Positions 26,359-39,583 of a DNA stretch of 64,000 nt are shown in pieces. The notes below the pieces were generated by a model. That model was not told where the DNA came from, ran no database searches, and saw only the letters and a program-made list of their open reading frames with translations. This stretch comes from Actinoalloteichus fjordicus (GTDB lineage: Bacteria; Actinomycetota; Actinomycetes; Mycobacteriales; Pseudonocardiaceae), in the NCBI RefSeq assembly GCF_001941625.1, contig NZ_CP016076.1, positions 5,316,001 to 5,380,000 of the forward strand. Direction: 5' to 3'. Position 1 is the first letter of the stretch. The number at the start of each line of letters is the position of its first letter. The position numbers were made by a program, and so were the translations under genes.

Positions 26359-26533
26359 GGCCGGGGCGATCCGGAGGGCGGATGTTCCGCTGCTGCCGTG
26401 GGGTTCGCCCGGGCGAGTCGGCCGCTCCCTGGCCGGCACGGCCTGATTCGCGCCGCTGGGGGTAGCCGGCGGGTCGGGGTTGCCTTGGCTGTGCGGATGA
26501 TCCTCTTCAACAATCCCGGTGGCCTTCGCAGCG

Positions 26534-26863
26534 GGAACAGCCCTGCGGGCGGGGAGAACGGACTACCGGCGGGGCAGCTCCCCGCGTTCTGCGGAACAGC
26601 CCCGCGTGCGCGGGGAGAACGGCACATGCCAGCCACCGCAGCTTCCTTCCTGAGGAACAGCCCGCGTGCGCGGGGAGAACCCGTCGCGCTTGCCGCTGAG
26701 CAGCTTCCTAATGGGAACAGCCCCGCGTGCGCGGGGAGAACGGGCCGCAGGCGAACGGCTTCTACGACCTGACGGGAACAGCCCCGCGTGCGCGGGGAGA
26801 ACGACAGCGCCCTGGCCCACCGGATCTACGCCAACGGAACAGCCCCGCGTGCGCGGGGAGAAC
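26534..26863 (-). CRISPR. CRISPR array, type I-E-like, 6 repeats
   Basis: Six repeats at 26534-26559 (degenerate, 26 nt), 26593-26620, 26654-26680 (one base short), 26714-26741, 26775-26802 and 26836-26863. Five 33-nt spacers give an exact 61-nt period. The full repeat is 28 nt; on the minus strand it begins GTTCTCCCCGCG and contains the CCCCGCG...CGCGGGG stem of type I-E repeats. The degenerate repeat at the left marks the trailer, so the leader is at the right and transcription is leftward. At least two spacers read as plausible protein-coding fragments (for example GPQANGFYDLT). No cas genes lie in the window. Confidence 0.95.
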
Positions 26864-26923
26864 ACTTGCTGACCTGGGACTCTACTCGCGAGTAACAGGA
26901 TTCTCGTTCACTCGGATCGAGTC
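26864..26923 (-). repeat. CRISPR leader, copy 1
   Basis: The 60 nt next to the last repeat are 78% identical without gaps (47 of 60) to the 60 nt next to the CRISPR remnant at 35202-35271. The block AACAGGATTC is identical in both. It sits at the leader end of the array and is AT-richer than its surroundings. Confidence 0.75.
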
Positions 26924-27079: not shown

Positions 27080-28228
27080 TCAGCCGAGATCGCGGAGGAC
27101 ATTCGCGGGTTCGTCCAGCCAGAGTGTGTGGCGCCCACCCGCTGTGACAGTCAGCCCGAATCGGTCTATACCGGGGCGGCCTGCCGCATGCCACGCATCG
27201 AGGATGGGCACGAGTTCGGTCCAGAGTCGCCTCGGTCCCGCCTGGCGAATGGTCACGCCGTCGGCGTCGAGATCCGCCCTGGCCCAGGAGCCCGACGCGA
27301 CATGAGTCCAGTGGTAAGCGTCGGGTGCGTCTGCCTCCGCCCCGGAGGAGACCAGCCTGCTGCGTTCTGCGACGAGTGCGGCGAAGAACGAGGCCATCAC
27401 GAAGGGCAGGCCAGCAACGGCAGAAGCAGGCATCGAGTCCACGCTGTCCGGCGTGATCTCTGTAGCCGCCAGCACGTCTCGGGGCGACGTCGAAATCGGA
27501 TCGGCGGCGTGCGGTGAACGCAGCGGCATGAACCCCGCCTGACTCAGGAACCGGCCGGACACCCCGCTGCCGTCACGACGCAGCAGCACAATGCCCTTGC
27601 TGACGTTGACCAGAATCGCACCCGCTTCGGACAGTTGCGCGAGCCAGGCAGACGGCACGCGGTCGACCCCACACGTGGCCAAGATCCGGTCGAACGGGGC
27701 TCTGTCGCCCACTCCCACGGCCCCATCGCCGCAACGCGTGTCGGGTGTGTAGCCGCAGGCGGCGAGGGCAGTCCTGGCATCGGCGACCAGGTCGGGATCG
27801 ACGTCGATGGTGGTGACGACGTCGTCACCAAGGCCGACGCAGAGCAGGGCAGCGTTGTAGCCGGTTCCGGTCCCGATCTCAAGGACGCGGCCGCCTGAAG
27901 CGATGTCGAGCTGCTCCAGCATGGCTGCCATGAGGCTGGGTTCGGTGGAAGAACTGATGGGGACTCCGTCGTCGTCGAACCGCGTGATCAGCGTGTCGTC
28001 GCGGTAGGCCGCAGTCATCGCCTTCGCCCGGCGCACCGGATCATCATCCTGGACGTCGTGCTGGTCGAACGAGTTGTGGACTGCGTCGTACACGGCGAAA
28101 CGCGGGGCGAACAGGTGCCGGGGAACTGCGAGGAATGCACTGCGCCAGACGTCAGACGTCAGGACGCTCGACAGGTCCTCCGCGAGACCAGTCCGAAGCC
28201 GGGAGGTGTTGTCGTCAAGGGTGGTCAT
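27080..28228 (-). CDS. tgmC: Graspetide-cluster protein-L-isoaspartate-type methyltransferase
   Basis: 382 residues. The SAM motif GGRVLEIGTGTGYNAALL and the PIMT-like N-terminus (VWRSAFLAVPRHLFAPRF) match the methyltransferase of ATP-grasp peptide maturase systems. A C-terminal domain of about 170 residues extends beyond the PIMT core. In studied clusters this enzyme methylates an Asp of the cyclised peptide, leading to aspartimide. The start at 28228 overlaps the stop of the ATP-grasp gene (ATGA). Third gene of the leftward operon precursor-ligase-methyltransferase. The reaction here is inferred from the family. Confidence 0.88.
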   Translation of the reverse strand: MTTLDDNTSRLRTGLAEDLSSVLTSDVWRSAFLAVPRHLFAPRFAVYDAVHNSFDQHDVQDDDPVRRAKAMTAAYRDDTLITRFDDDGVPISSSTEPSLMAAMLEQLDIASGGRVLEIGTGTGYNAALLCVGLGDDVVTTIDVDPDLVADARTALAACGYTPDTRCGDGAVGVGDRAPFDRILATCGVDRVPSAWLAQLSEAGAILVNVSKGIVLLRRDGSGVSGRFLSQAGFMPLRSPHAADPISTSPRDVLAATEITPDSVDSMPASAVAGLPFVMASFFAALVAERSRLVSSGAEADAPDAYHWTHVASGSWARADLDADGVTIRQAGPRRLWTELVPILDAWHAAGRPGIDRFGLTVTAGGRHTLWLDEPANVLRDLG

Positions 28229-29196
28229 GATGGTCCTTCTCCGATGAGTTCGTCGGCCATGGCGACAGTGACGGGTCCACGAAGGGCATCGATCCACGCC
28301 CACTGGCCATTGGGGTTGAGGTCGCCGAGGAAGTGCCACCGTCCGTCGTGGTCGACGACGAAATCAGGCGCTGCGAAGTTCAGTCCGAGGGCCTTCAGCA
28401 TGCAGCTGACCCCAGCCGACACATCGTCGGGTACGCCGATGGGCGTGTACTGAAGACGGGCGTGCTCAGCACGCCAATCCACGGTGTCCGTACCAGCAGG
28501 CAGATCGATCCGGGTGGCGAAGAACCGTCGTCCAACCACGGCGAGCCGCACCGAATAGGCACAGGGAACCCGCGCCTGAAACAGATGCGTGGTGCGACGG
28601 ACGCCTGCAGTGATGTCGTCGGCAGTGACAGGCGCCGCGCGGAGAGCGACACGACGGCCGGATTCGCTGCCGGGTCCGCCATCCAACGGTTTGTAGATCA
28701 CGCCTCCGGAGTGCGCGACGCAGAATTCCCGAGCCGCGTCCGGGCTGTTGGTGAGTAACGACGGGGGAACCGTCAGACCGGCAGCTGCGGCGAGAGCCAT
28801 CTGCAGCGGCTTGTGGCCGGCAGCTGCGATGCGATCCGGCCTGCTGATCCAGTGCACGTTGAGGGAGGCAAGCAGGCCGCCGAAGCCGTGAAAAGCCTCT
28901 GCGACGGCCCATCTCCGCTCTGTCGAAGACAGCCCGTGGTAAGGCACGAAGGGCGCGGGTTTCCGATACCAGATCGCGCGGAGGACCGACAGGTCCAGCT
29001 CATGTAGATCGTCACGTAGCGTTCCCGTCCACTCCCGGTGACCGGGCTCCAGATAGGAAACCTGTTCGAGGCGCTCGGGGAACGCCGCGACGTCGAACCG
29101 GGTGACCGCAACCCCACGGGCAGCAAGTTCGGCGATGACCAGATCTGCCGTGATGTCCTGGTCTCGGGTGATCACAGCGATGGTAGCGGCAGTCAT
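28225..29196 (-). CDS. tgmB: ATP-grasp ribosomal peptide maturase (graspetide ligase)
   Basis: 323 residues with the ATP-grasp layout of TgmB/MvdD-type ligases: an N-terminal Rossmann-like part (IAVITRDQDITADLVIAEL), IWYRKPAPF, the nucleotide-binding Lys in GGVIYKPLDGG, and the metal-binding end FVVDHDGRWHFLGDLNPNGQWAW. It joins Asp/Glu side chains to Ser/Thr or Lys side chains, forming lactones or lactams in a ribosomal peptide. It starts 6 nt after the precursor gene and overlaps the methyltransferase gene, so it is one operon. Confidence 0.92.
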   Translation of the reverse strand: MTAATIAVITRDQDITADLVIAELAARGVAVTRFDVAAFPERLEQVSYLEPGHREWTGTLRDDLHELDLSVLRAIWYRKPAPFVPYHGLSSTERRWAVAEAFHGFGGLLASLNVHWISRPDRIAAAGHKPLQMALAAAAGLTVPPSLLTNSPDAAREFCVAHSGGVIYKPLDGGPGSESGRRVALRAAPVTADDITAGVRRTTHLFQARVPCAYSVRLAVVGRRFFATRIDLPAGTDTVDWRAEHARLQYTPIGVPDDVSAGVSCMLKALGLNFAAPDFVVDHDGRWHFLGDLNPNGQWAWIDALRGPVTVAMADELIGEGPS

Positions 29197-29202
29197 CTCC
29201 GG

Positions 29203-29484
29203 TCAGTCCTTGTCGGTGACCCAGGTCATATCGAATTTTGTATCGTAATGAGTGGCCGCGTGAATCGGACGATCGGCGTTGACAACCGCTTGGTCGCGAC
29301 CGTCGACGTTGAGCTGCCGAGACCGGTCGTAGGTGATTCCGTTCACCGCGATCATGTCGGCATCCGCCGCCTCCACACGTGTCAGGCCGAACGGACGCGC
29401 GTCGCCGATACTCGGTTCATCCTCGGAGATCGTGAGGTCAGACGGGCGCACGGGCAAACCGGAGGGCACAATCGAAGATTTCAC
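29203..29484 (-). CDS. tgmA: Graspetide precursor peptide
   Basis: 93 residues starting at GTG 29484 with GAGGA about 7 nt upstream. It carries the conserved leader motifs of putative ATP-grasp-modified RiPPs: ARPFGLTR at 29-36 and YDRSRQLNVDGR at 52-63. The presumed core THYDTKFDMTWVTDKD (78-93) has four Thr and four Asp, suited to ester crosslinks, and an Asp that the methyltransferase could convert to aspartimide. Core limits and ring pattern are inference. First gene of the operon. Confidence 0.88.
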   Translation of the reverse strand: MKSSIVPSGLPVRPSDLTISEDEPSIGDARPFGLTRVEAADADMIAVNGITYDRSRQLNVDGRDQAVVNADRPIHAATHYDTKFDMTWVTDKD

Positions 29485-30953: not shown

Positions 30954-31796
30954 GTGACGCACGCCCTCCACGAAGCACGACGCTCCCTCGGCCAGCAGCT
31001 ACGTGATCTACGCAAAGACGCGGGGCTGACCGGCCGAGGCCTGGCTGCCCTCGCTGGTTGGCATAGCTCGAAGATCTCCAAGATCGAACATGGCGGGCAG
31101 ACCCCATCCGAGGAAGACATTCGCGCCTGGTGTCAGCACAGCTCAGCCGACAGCCAGATTCCTGATCTGATCGCCGCCGTCCGCAACATCGAGTCAATGT
31201 ACGTAGAATGGCGGCGAGTGCTGCGCACTGGGACGCGCCGCCGCCAAAGCGCGTCGCGACGACTGGAGTCGAGTACCAGGATAATGCGATGGTACGAACC
31301 GGTCCTCATACCGGGACTGCTACAGACGGCCGAGTATGCCCGCGAAGTCATGCGTCCCGTGATCGAGTTCTACGCAGTCCCGGATGATCTCGACTCGGGT
31401 GTCGAGGAACGCATGGAACGGCAAAAGATTCTCCGGCGTGACGATCGCCGCTTTCATTTCATCATCAGCCAACAGGCCTTGAGGACGACGGTGGGCAGCA
31501 CCGAGACCATGATCGGCCAGCTGAATCGACTTTTGACCGCACGGTCACTTCCTCGCGTCAGTTTCGGAATTATCCCAGACAATGCCGAATACCGGACACC
31601 GACAAATCAATTCATCATCTTCGACAGACACCTCATTCAAGTGGAGACGATTTCAGCTGAACTGAGCATAAGTCAGCCACGAGAAATCGCACTCTACGAT
31701 AAGGCTTTTCGGCAACTCGCCCGGCAGGCAGTCACCGGGGTGGCGGCCGTATCACTGATCAACACCGCCCTCGATGAGCTTCAGGCACAGCGATGA
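30954..31796 (+). CDS. Helix-turn-helix regulator with DUF5753 domain
   Basis: 280 residues. XRE-type HTH at about 10-65 (LGQQLRDLRKDAGLTGRGLAALAGWHSSKISKIEHG), followed by the DUF5753 region: MRWYEPVLIPGLLQTAEYAREVM, RQKILRRDDRRFHFIISQQALRT, and RVSFGIIPDNAEYRT. Such regulators pair with small DUF397/DUF6879-type partners in actinomycete developmental and stress circuits. The start is GTG 30954, 11 nt after the DUF6879 stop, so it is the same operon. A second, separate regulator of this type lies at 35.6 kb. Confidence 0.9.
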   Translation: MTHALHEARRSLGQQLRDLRKDAGLTGRGLAALAGWHSSKISKIEHGGQTPSEEDIRAWCQHSSADSQIPDLIAAVRNIESMYVEWRRVLRTGTRRRQSASRRLESSTRIMRWYEPVLIPGLLQTAEYAREVMRPVIEFYAVPDDLDSGVEERMERQKILRRDDRRFHFIISQQALRTTVGSTETMIGQLNRLLTARSLPRVSFGIIPDNAEYRTPTNQFIIFDRHLIQVETISAELSISQPREIALYDKAFRQLARQAVTGVAAVSLINTALDELQAQR

Positions 31797-32177
31797 CATT
31801 CATCTTGACGCACGCCGCAGACTCCGCAGGCATCATTTCACTTGGAGGCACTTCAGAGTCGCGATTCTGACCGACTTCTTCGAAGGTCCGTTCTTCTACC
31901 GTGTGCCAGGCGTGTTCTCCACCAACCACGCCGTCCAGCATGCGGCGCAGGACCTTGGTCTCAGCGCCGGCCTCGTCGCAGACCTGGAGGCCTGGGACGC
32001 CGACACCTACGACGGAAGCTACCCGCCGGACTCGGCCTTCCCACCCCCGAAGCCGAGACGACCTGGATCGAGCGCGGTAAGGAACTCGCCGCCCGCGTCA
32101 AACAGGAGTTCCCGTTGGTCGCCAGCGTGGACTATCAGGCCGACGGCCACTATCAGGACGGCACCTACGTCCTCTGA
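31774..32177 (+). pseudogene. Frameshifted paralogue of the gene at 32201
   Basis: Two frames together recreate a protein like the next gene: FFEGPFFYRVPGVFSTNHAV, LGLSAGLVADLEAWD and SYPPDSAFP in one frame, then EAETTWIERGKELAARVKQ and ASVDYQADG in another. Aligning DNA with the intact paralogue places a 1-nt deletion at about 32031-32044. The start is also unclear; the frame opens at ATG 31774 inside the regulator's end. A sequencing error or programmed slip is possible but unsupported. Confidence 0.75.
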
Positions 32178-32200: not shown

Positions 32201-32554
32201 ATGATGACCCAGATGACGATCACAGTGTCCATGCTCGCAGGCTACGGCGAGGGACCGCTCTTCTTCGACATGGACGACACGATGCGGTGCAACCACACCG
32301 TCGCTGAAGCAGCCTCTTACCTCGGTCTCAGCAAGGCCACCGCCACCGACCTGGAGGACTGGGATCAGGAGTACCAGCGCACGCTGGATCACACCTATCC
32401 GCCCGATTCCCGCTTTCCCAGCCCCGAAGCGAAACGTGCCTGGATCGAGCGCGGCAAGGAACTGGCCGCCCGGATCAAGCAGGATTCCTCGATCGTGGCC
32501 AGCGTCGACTACCAGGCCAACGGCTGCTACGAGAACGGCACCTGCGTCTTCTGA
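32201..32554 (+). CDS. Unknown small protein (intact tandem paralogue)
   Basis: 117 residues, no family recognised. It has an acidic N-terminal half (GPLFFDMDDTMRCNHTVAEAASYLGLSKATATDLEDWDQEYQ), then YPPDSRFPSPEAKRAWIERGKELAARIKQ, which looks like a helix, and a C-terminal VASVDYQANGCYENGTCVF with two Cys. No membrane segment. The start could also be ATG 32204 or 32213. It is a tandem duplicate of the broken gene just upstream and about 160 bp ahead of the cofE-like gene. Confidence 0.65.
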   Translation: MMTQMTITVSMLAGYGEGPLFFDMDDTMRCNHTVAEAASYLGLSKATATDLEDWDQEYQRTLDHTYPPDSRFPSPEAKRAWIERGKELAARIKQDSSIVASVDYQANGCYENGTCVF

Positions 32555-38035: not shown

Positions 38036-38565
38036 ACGACGACGACCAGCCGTGGTTCACCCAGGACACCCGCCCGCAGGCCGGTCTCTGTCTGGAACGA
38101 CATCTGATCGTCGGGCACCGGCCGGCAGACGGACGCCCGGTCGTGGCGCTGTGCGGACGGATGATGCTCGTGGGACCGCCACCGGAGGTCGACGTCGACG
38201 AGGTGGCATTCCAGGCGGTCCGGCCCTGCTGGCACTGCCACGACGTCATGACCGGCCACCGTCCCCCACCAACGGCGCCCACCGAGCCGACGCCCCTTCT
38301 GCTCGTCGAAGTGCCCGCCGCAGCGGACGGGGCACTGGTGGCGCACCTCTGCCAGGACTCCTCGGCGGAGGCGAACCTGCTTCGCACGCGGTGCGGTCGG
38401 CGGGCGCAGTCCTTGCTGGACAGACAGCGCCTCGGCGCGCTGTTCTGCGGTGCGTGTCTGGGTGCGTCGTCGCCGTCGGTCGGCCTCCCGCCCCCTCTTC
38501 CGTCTCCGATCGCACTCCCCGGAGACGGGCGGCCCGGCCTTCCTCCCACGCGCACCCCCGCGTAG
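38032..38565 (+). CDS. Cys-rich protein, overlap chain gene 5
   Basis: 177 residues. Cys/His pairs occur in two blocks: VALCGRMM ... PCWHCHDVM and TRCGRRAQSLLD ... FCGACLG, a layout like paired zinc ribbons. Pro-rich C-terminus. It starts by ATGA overlap with gene 4 and is followed after 88 bp by the EEP-family gene. No family recognised. Confidence 0.6.
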   Translation: MNDDDQPWFTQDTRPQAGLCLERHLIVGHRPADGRPVVALCGRMMLVGPPPEVDVDEVAFQAVRPCWHCHDVMTGHRPPPTAPTEPTPLLLVEVPAAADGALVAHLCQDSSAEANLLRTRCGRRAQSLLDRQRLGALFCGACLGASSPSVGLPPPLPSPIALPGDGRPGLPPTRTPA

Positions 38566-38653
38566 GTCGGGCCGACGGGCGGCGCGGGACGTCCTGCGGC
38601 CCGCGCCGTCCTGCTCGGCGAACTCGTACGTCATCATCGCGAAAGGACTGTTC

Positions 38654-39583
38654 ATGAGTGGTGTGTTCACGATCGGTACGTTCAATTATGAGAACGGTGG
38701 GTTGCGGGAGGATGGTCGTATCGAGCTTGGTCCGTTGATCGAGACGATTGCTCGATGTCCGGTGGATGTGTTGATGCTCGGGGAGTGTCCGCAGTATCGC
38801 CGTGACGGGGAGCGGCCGCTGTGGGAGGCGACCAACCGACTGTCCGAACTCCTCGGCGGCTCGGCCCGCTATCTGCCGTTCTATTCTCAGCGCGTCGGAC
38901 GGAAGAACCATCCGATGCTGTTGGTGAGTTCGGATGTCGTGGAGCCCGTGCAGTGGCACGACCCGATGGTCGCCGACACCGGTTACTCGGTGGCCGGATT
39001 CCTCCGTGCTCGGGTGCTCGGCGTGCCGATGTGGCTGTCGTCGATCCACTGGCCCGGCGGCGCCGGCCGGGCCGAGTTCGACCGGCAGGCCGCGATCTTG
39101 ACCGAGCGGTCGGTGAAGCCCACGATCATCGCCGGGGACTTCAACGCCACCAGCTCGTGGGAGAAGGACATCCGCCCCACCGACTGGGGCGCCGCGCATC
39201 TCGAGCGCGGATCGTGGTGGAAGCCCCTCCAGAAGGGCCGCTACGACACCACGTCCGGGCGGTGGGTCGTCGACACCGCCCAGCTTGACTACCTGCGCCA
39301 CGACCTGCAGTTCCGGGACTTCGGCGAGCTGGCCGACGATCCGACACCCACGACTCACGAGCAGAACTGTTCGATGCGCATCGACCGGATCATGGCCTCC
39401 ACGGCCGTCCCCGGCACGCTGGTAGCAGGCTCGTATCGGGTGCATCGTCCCTCTGATGCCGAGGCCGTCTCCGACCACGACTACGTCACCGCCGCCTGGG
39501 ACCTCGCCCCCGCCCGCACCGTCGAGCGGCGGCAGCTCGGCAGCGCCGACGCGAGCCGGCCGGCAGGCACGCGAACCAGCTGA
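38654..39583 (+). CDS. Endonuclease/exonuclease/phosphatase-family protein
   Basis: 309 residues of the EEP (DNase I-like) fold: FTIGTFNYENGG near the start, VLMLGECPQ carrying the catalytic Glu, IIAGDFNATSSW (metal/phosphate-binding Asp-Asn), and SDHDYVTAAW with the final catalytic Asp-His. The family spans nucleases, phosphatases and phospholipases; the substrate is unknown. GAAAGGA precedes ATG 38654. The first about 50 codons are unusually rich in T at third position compared with the rest of the gene. Confidence 0.87.
   Translation: MSGVFTIGTFNYENGGLREDGRIELGPLIETIARCPVDVLMLGECPQYRRDGERPLWEATNRLSELLGGSARYLPFYSQRVGRKNHPMLLVSSDVVEPVQWHDPMVADTGYSVAGFLRARVLGVPMWLSSIHWPGGAGRAEFDRQAAILTERSVKPTIIAGDFNATSSWEKDIRPTDWGAAHLERGSWWKPLQKGRYDTTSGRWVVDTAQLDYLRHDLQFRDFGELADDPTPTTHEQNCSMRIDRIMASTAVPGTLVAGSYRVHRPSDAEAVSDHDYVTAAWDLAPARTVERRQLGSADASRPAGTRTS

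Follow-up and report, generated by a model that had tools for sequence, protein, structure and literature searches.

A probable graspimiditide operon in Actinoalloteichus fjordicus with a compact predicted core and a clade-specific ligase motif

Background

Group 13 graspetides, the graspimiditides, are peptides closed by an ATP-grasp ligase in which a homologue of protein isoaspartyl methyltransferase (PIMT), bearing an extra C-terminal domain with the motif WXXXGXP, converts an aspartate of the loop to an aspartimide (PMC13001092). Four of them have been made in E. coli; they contain between two and five cross-links, which are Thr-Asp esters, and the methylated aspartate is followed by glycine in all four, although Met, His, Asn, Ser and Thr are named among the residues possible at this position (PMC13001092). 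The loops of the characterised members comprise 10–12 residues (PMC12291112). The founding member, fuscimiditide, is encoded by thfA-thfB-thfM of Thermobifida fusca. Numbered from Ala1, it consists of the stems TMRVT and DVEKD with the loop Tyr8–Ser17 between them, and is held by the esters T7-D18 and T3-D22 (PMC12291112). Amycolimiditide, albusimiditide and SsfA(BM) belong to the same group and likewise have a PIMT homologue.

Imiditides and type I pamtides resemble this group in that a RiPP-type PIMT generates an aspartimide or isoaspartate, but they lack an ATP-grasp ligase, and the methyltransferase acts on linear precursors (PMC13001092). Microviridin-type graspetides are made by ATP-grasp ligases (MdnB and MdnC) homologous to the TgmB protein described here. 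To our knowledge, their leader and core are different and no PIMT is involved.

Results and discussion

Gene content and family assignment

The window analysed here is a stretch of 64,000 nucleotides from the genome of A. fjordicus. It contains the same set of precursor, ATP-grasp and PIMT-like genes as the fuscimiditide locus, in the order tgmA-tgmB-tgmC and all on the minus strand, at 27080–29484. The features referred to in the text are the following.

29203..29484, minus strand: tgmA, 93-aa precursor with GTG start; leader motifs PFGLTR (aa 31–36) and YDRSRQLNVD (aa 52–61)
29203..29253, minus strand: core of tgmA with the stop codon, T78-HYD-T82-KFDMTWVT-D91-K-D93
28225..29196, minus strand: tgmB, graspetide synthetase (ATP-grasp ligase), ATG start, 323 aa
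27080..28228, minus strand: tgmC, RiPP-type PIMT with WXXXGXP, start corrected to ATG 28228, 382 aa
30409..30942, plus strand: DUF6879 protein (Pfam PF21806), divergent neighbour
30954..31796, plus strand: XRE-type regulator with DUF5753 (WhiJ/Sco1979-like; Pfam HTH_31 and DUF5753), divergent neighbour

A first-pass annotation had described this region as a complete three-gene RiPP operon, and all three reading frames are indeed present and intact at the positions it gave, including both leader motifs of the precursor. It had also reported overlaps and a 6-nt gap. The gap of exactly 6 nt (29197–29202), from the tgmA stop to the tgmB start, is confirmed, but there is a single overlap rather than several, namely the 4-nt ATGA shared by the tgmB stop and the ATG of tgmC at 28228. 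The tgmC reading frame itself is open from 28339; the ATGA overlap and a 382-aa product whose N-terminus is typical of the family make ATG 28228 the likely start. A scan for promoter-like sites of the operon found none, the sigma-70 consensus being weak evidence in an actinomycete, and a terminator scan at the operon gave nothing above chance level. The flanking genes scanned, at positions between about 25 and 40 kb, included none for a transporter or peptidase, in agreement with the earlier remark that no exporter or protease is adjacent. Since no graspimiditide has a known native protease (PMC12291112), this absence is not special.

TgmB matches the TIGR04187 model over its full length with 342.7 bits (E = 1.8e-102), about 7 bits below the cut-off of 350. 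TgmC matches TIGR04188 with 313.4 bits (cut-off 380) over model positions 9–362 of 363, and TgmA matches TIGR04186 with 20.7 bits, just under the cut-off of 25. We interpret these scores, slightly below the NCBIfam cut-offs, as a sign of a divergent sub-clade and not of a wrong family. The Pfam matches are the MvdD pre-ATP-grasp domain in TgmB and PCMT in TgmC. Solved structures homologous to TgmB include MdnC (5ig9), MdnB (5ig8), AMdnB (7m4s), CdnC (7mgv) and PsnB (7drm), and the solved structure nearest to TgmC is that of the Thermotoga maritima PIMT (1dl5). TgmC contains the SAM motif VLEIGTGTGYNA and, in its extra C-terminal domain, the sequence WHAAGRP, which conforms to WXXXGXP. The leader of TgmA shows the group 13 pattern P-F/W-G-L ... 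Y-D-x-x-R-Q, common across the precursor alignment described below. The locus thus combines the ATP-grasp ligase, the PIMT with its C-terminal domain and WXXXGXP, the leader motifs and a core capable of forming a stem-loop, and the graspetide cluster with an isoaspartyl-type methyltransferase that had been annotated can be named more precisely as a group 13 graspetide cluster (TIGR04186/04187/04188). Judged from its genes, it is a correctly recognised member of an already known natural-product family. A survey has reportedly sorted 962 graspimiditides into eight core clusters, among which the tgmA core may already be listed, and we do not claim a new type.

Precursor core and predicted rings

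Another genome contains a fuscimiditide-like locus (L114) whose precursor ends in AGTMRVTYPDGQKPGQSDVEKD, in agreement with every published fuscimiditide position; its ligase and methyltransferase are 41% and 35% identical to the window TgmB and TgmC, respectively. The only DG of this precursor is at D10, three residues after the inner threonine, which is where the target aspartate of fuscimiditide lies (PMC12291112), and D85 of the window precursor likewise follows T82 by three residues. T78 and T82 retain the Thr-x3-Thr spacing of fuscimiditide. From the superposition on T7-D18, T3-D22 and D10, together with the conservation described below, we infer the substrate residues and the ring topology: an inner ester T82-D91, an outer ester T78-D93 nested around it, as in fuscimiditide, and an aspartimide across D85-M86.

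The predicted core also differs from fuscimiditide in several respects. The loop from T82 to D91 has 8 residues instead of 10 and is thus shorter than the 10–12 residues of the characterised type, the target aspartate is followed by methionine (Met86) and not by the glycine of all characterised members, and the C-terminal aspartates are spaced D-x-D instead of D-x3-D, which renders the stem asymmetric, three residues of one side facing a single residue of the other. These differences and the scores below the cut-offs are among the points that speak against the assignment. The fuscimiditide ligase accepts loops of 4–12 residues and one asymmetric stem variant (PMC12291112), and an asymmetric topology with an 8-residue loop is therefore chemically reasonable.

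To assess conservation, the reading frame preceding tgmB was taken as the precursor in about 47 loci from the same genome, its relatives and other actinomycetes. Eighteen of these precursors, from several genera, align without gaps on the core of the window. T/S82, D85 and D91 are present in 18 of 18, T/S78 in 15 and D93 in 13, and several of the cores without D93 have an aspartate at +4 instead. D85 is followed by Met, His, Asn, Ser or Thr and never by Gly. These cores were chosen because they carry the pattern, so the invariance of its residues is partly a product of selection; the independent tests are the TgmB tree and the signature search presented in the next section. The first-pass annotation expected ester or amide rings. 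No lysine occurs at any conserved core position and the characterised members contain Thr-Asp esters (PMC13001092), and for these reasons we expect esters but not amides.

Comparison of the last 73 codons of tgmA between the closely related loci L095 and L096 shows 13 synonymous and 7 non-synonymous codon differences, and 16 of the 23 base changes fall on the third codon position. This mostly synonymous divergence, together with the recurrence of gene order, leader motifs and core in other genera, indicates that the match of the cluster to the family goes beyond chance. We consider it highly probable that tgmABC is a graspimiditide operon with the two nested esters and the aspartimide predicted above.

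The alternative that best withstands the data is a cluster of the same type with a different topology, that is, with three or more esters, with links through T87, T90, D81 or the C-terminal carboxylate, or with the methylated aspartate elsewhere. The core offers four threonines and four aspartates, use of the C-terminal carboxylate has been postulated for SsfA from the same group (PMC13001092, PMC10787088), D81 is kept in 11 of the 18 aligned cores, and D93 is conserved only in part, with an aspartate at +4 in its place in several relatives. Against this, the hydroxyl residues at 87 and 90 are not kept (position 87 is Gln in 16 of the 18 cores, the window having Thr), the remaining relatives have L, Q, I, E, K, A or T at the position of D81, and invariance is limited to T/S82, D85 and D91. 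A different topology is accordingly a real but clearly less likely outcome, to which we would assign about one chance in four.

Ligase motif and its association with the core

The nested arrangement predicted for the window is accompanied by a change in the ligase. The most similar TgmB that we found is that of Saccharopolyspora pogona, encoded on the 85-kb plasmid NZ_CP031144.1, with 65% identity (the annotated tgmA there shows 44%). Its tgmABC locus has the core TSYDTQYDMQWFVDQD and resembles the window in its ligase signature and in an XRE/DUF397 pair, which lies upstream, but it is plasmid-borne, two hypothetical genes precede it, and its methyltransferase lacks an exact WXXXGXP, unlike the WHAAGRP of the window TgmC. 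The signature, F[LHI]GDLNPNGQW, is carried by the TgmB of the window, of S. pogona (L074) and of the loci L075, L076 and L095–L098. Other TgmB proteins, as well as the solved MdnC and AMdnB, have FLE-x-NP or FLExNPNGQW at this site, and the fuscimiditide ligase has EVNPNGQ where the window has GDLNPNGQW. Relative to these, the window clade exhibits a one-residue insertion and a Glu-to-Asp replacement in the conserved E-x-N motif. In ATP-grasp enzymes the glutamate of this motif generally serves as a metal ligand, and the replacement and insertion could alter the activity of TgmB.

In a tree of 47 TgmB sequences built by maximum likelihood, 12 of the 15 loci with the core fall in one supported clade (98/86), and the ligases with the GDLNPNGQW variant form a subset within it. 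The core type requires 2 changes on this tree compared with 12.9 after shuffling of the labels, and none of 500 shuffles reached as low a number. In a separate test, GDLNPNGQW was searched as a DNA pattern without consideration of the precursor. Of 390 genomes from the family of the window's genome, 12 contained the pattern, representing 7 of 46 genera. In a class-wide sample of 394 genomes it was confined to the window's own genome, and no other family sampled had it. Each intact match adjoins a precursor with a D-x-D core, which indicates that the ligase variant and the core type travel together. The two exceptions are remnants (L143 and L148), one of which, L148, still has the core TSTDTRYDSQWFVDKD. 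Most matches come from the clade that had already been sampled, and the search is thus a consistency test within one lineage and not evidence of many origins.

At the level of sequence, the gene identities, the operon layout, the conserved core and its co-occurrence with the ligase variant are established. The compact loop without glycine and the ligase motif linked to it are the unusual features of the locus and appear to define a sub-clade; the first-pass annotation mentioned neither of these, its most distinctive traits. Whether the clade constitutes a distinct biochemical variant, in which ligases with the insertion and Glu-to-Asp change act on D-x-D cores with 8-residue loops and the aspartimide forms at Asp-Met, Asp-His, Asp-Asn or Asp-Ser rather than Asp-Gly, is in our view evenly balanced.

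Genome context and origin of the cluster

The genome of A. fjordicus (7.12 Mb, one contig) harbours eight TgmB loci, at two of which the gene is split between two frames, together with twelve genes for RiPP-type PIMTs, the most among about 350 genomes. No other genome among 296 of the class and 60 relatives had more than about four to five TgmB matches. A scan of genome contigs with TgmB retrieved only five distant relatives. The split genes are located at 6532648–6533585 and 4966560–4967479, and the precursor and methyltransferase genes beside them are apparently intact. At 5435323–5435511 (L037), a RiPP-type PIMT gene has only a short TgmB remnant adjacent to it. Two further RiPP-type PIMT genes of this genome have no ATP-grasp gene, and just upstream of them lie short ORFs of about 36–41 aa rich in Lys, Asp and Gly (L032, 7901–8026; L034, 7306–7413), which resemble precursors of imiditides or type I pamtides.

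Pairs of XRE/DUF5753 and DUF397 regulators co-occur with group 13 clusters (PMC13097080). The divergently transcribed XRE-DUF5753 protein is the probable regulator of the window cluster and the DUF6879 protein probably belongs to the same regulatory neighbourhood. An XRE-DUF397 pair is located about 6 kb from the cluster. In the genome as a whole, 7 of the 12 PIMT loci have a DUF397 gene no more than 10 kb away compared to 1.26 expected (p about 1.5e-4), in agreement with the published association (PMC13097080). A 117-aa protein (32201–32554, plus strand; no Pfam or NCBIfam family) was considered as a part of the system and rejected, as it belongs to a genome-wide family with a far stronger tie to DUF397 than to PIMT loci. 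This expanded family has 49 matches at 20 loci, often in tandem, with partial copies at about 31842–32177, and 15 of these loci have a DUF397 gene at a distance of 5 kb or less compared to 1.2 expected, which ties it to the XRE/DUF397 regulators.

Two other elements were observed in the window. Directly downstream of tgmC, at 26527–26864, is a short CRISPR-like array of six repeats of about 28 nt (GGAACAGCCCCGCGTGCGCGGGGAGAAC, type I-E-like) spaced at 59–61 nt, the first repeat being degenerate. A protein with an endonuclease/exonuclease/phosphatase domain is encoded at 38450–39583 (plus strand). The only other copy found in the genome, 85% identical and containing an in-frame TAG, lies at 4969022–4970071 beside another tgm locus.

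The GC content of the cluster and its neighbours is about 0.60–0.67 compared with 0.70–0.74 for the genome, and their GC3 is 0.72–0.76 compared with 0.85–0.95 in most other genes. These low values and the location of the closest TgmB on the S. pogona plasmid suggest that the cluster likely arrived horizontally. One could suppose that a cluster so acquired is now decaying or silent and its product no longer made, a notion with which the low GC and GC3, the two frame-broken TgmB loci of the same genome, the remnants with the same ligase signature in relatives (L143 and L148) and the lack of a nearby exporter or protease would all be compatible. The three genes of the window are nevertheless intact and translationally spaced or overlapping, the SAM motif, WXXXGXP and the core residues are kept, and tgmA changes among relatives are mostly synonymous; we consider decay improbable. 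That TgmC is a repair-type PIMT for aged proteins, adjacent to the graspetide pair by accident, is scarcely credible, since beyond its match to the general PCMT family the model that fits it best is the RiPP-specific TIGR04188, covered over nearly its full length, the extra C-terminal WXXXGXP domain is present, and a TIGR04188-type methyltransferase accompanies TgmB in every core-group member examined. A linear imiditide or pamtide, in which the PIMT is the sole modifying enzyme, was rejected together with the repair enzyme on account of TIGR04188, WXXXGXP and the ATP-grasp ligase directly upstream of tgmC.

Proposed pathway and implications

The reading of tgmABC as a graspimiditide operon leads us to propose the following pathway. 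TgmB would bind the leader of TgmA through PFGLTR...YDxxRQ and, with ATP, phosphorylate the side-chain carboxylates of the two C-terminal aspartates, D91 and D93, upon which the side-chain esters T82-D91, with its 8-residue loop, and T78-D93 would close in a nested manner. TgmC would recognise only the closed stem-loop peptide and methylate D85 from SAM, and the methyl ester would then collapse spontaneously to the aspartimide across D85-M86. Partial hydrolysis to isoaspartate and aspartate, followed by re-methylation, may occur. The leader would be cut off by a host protease encoded elsewhere.

The eight loci in one genome provide a natural set of parallel leader and ligase pairs. The sub-clade of the window could show the lower limit of loop size for the methyltransferase and whether the lifetime of the aspartimide is set by the residue that follows the aspartate, and the change in the ligase motif could serve as a probe of the chemistry of the metal and the acyl phosphate in ATP-grasp peptide cyclases.
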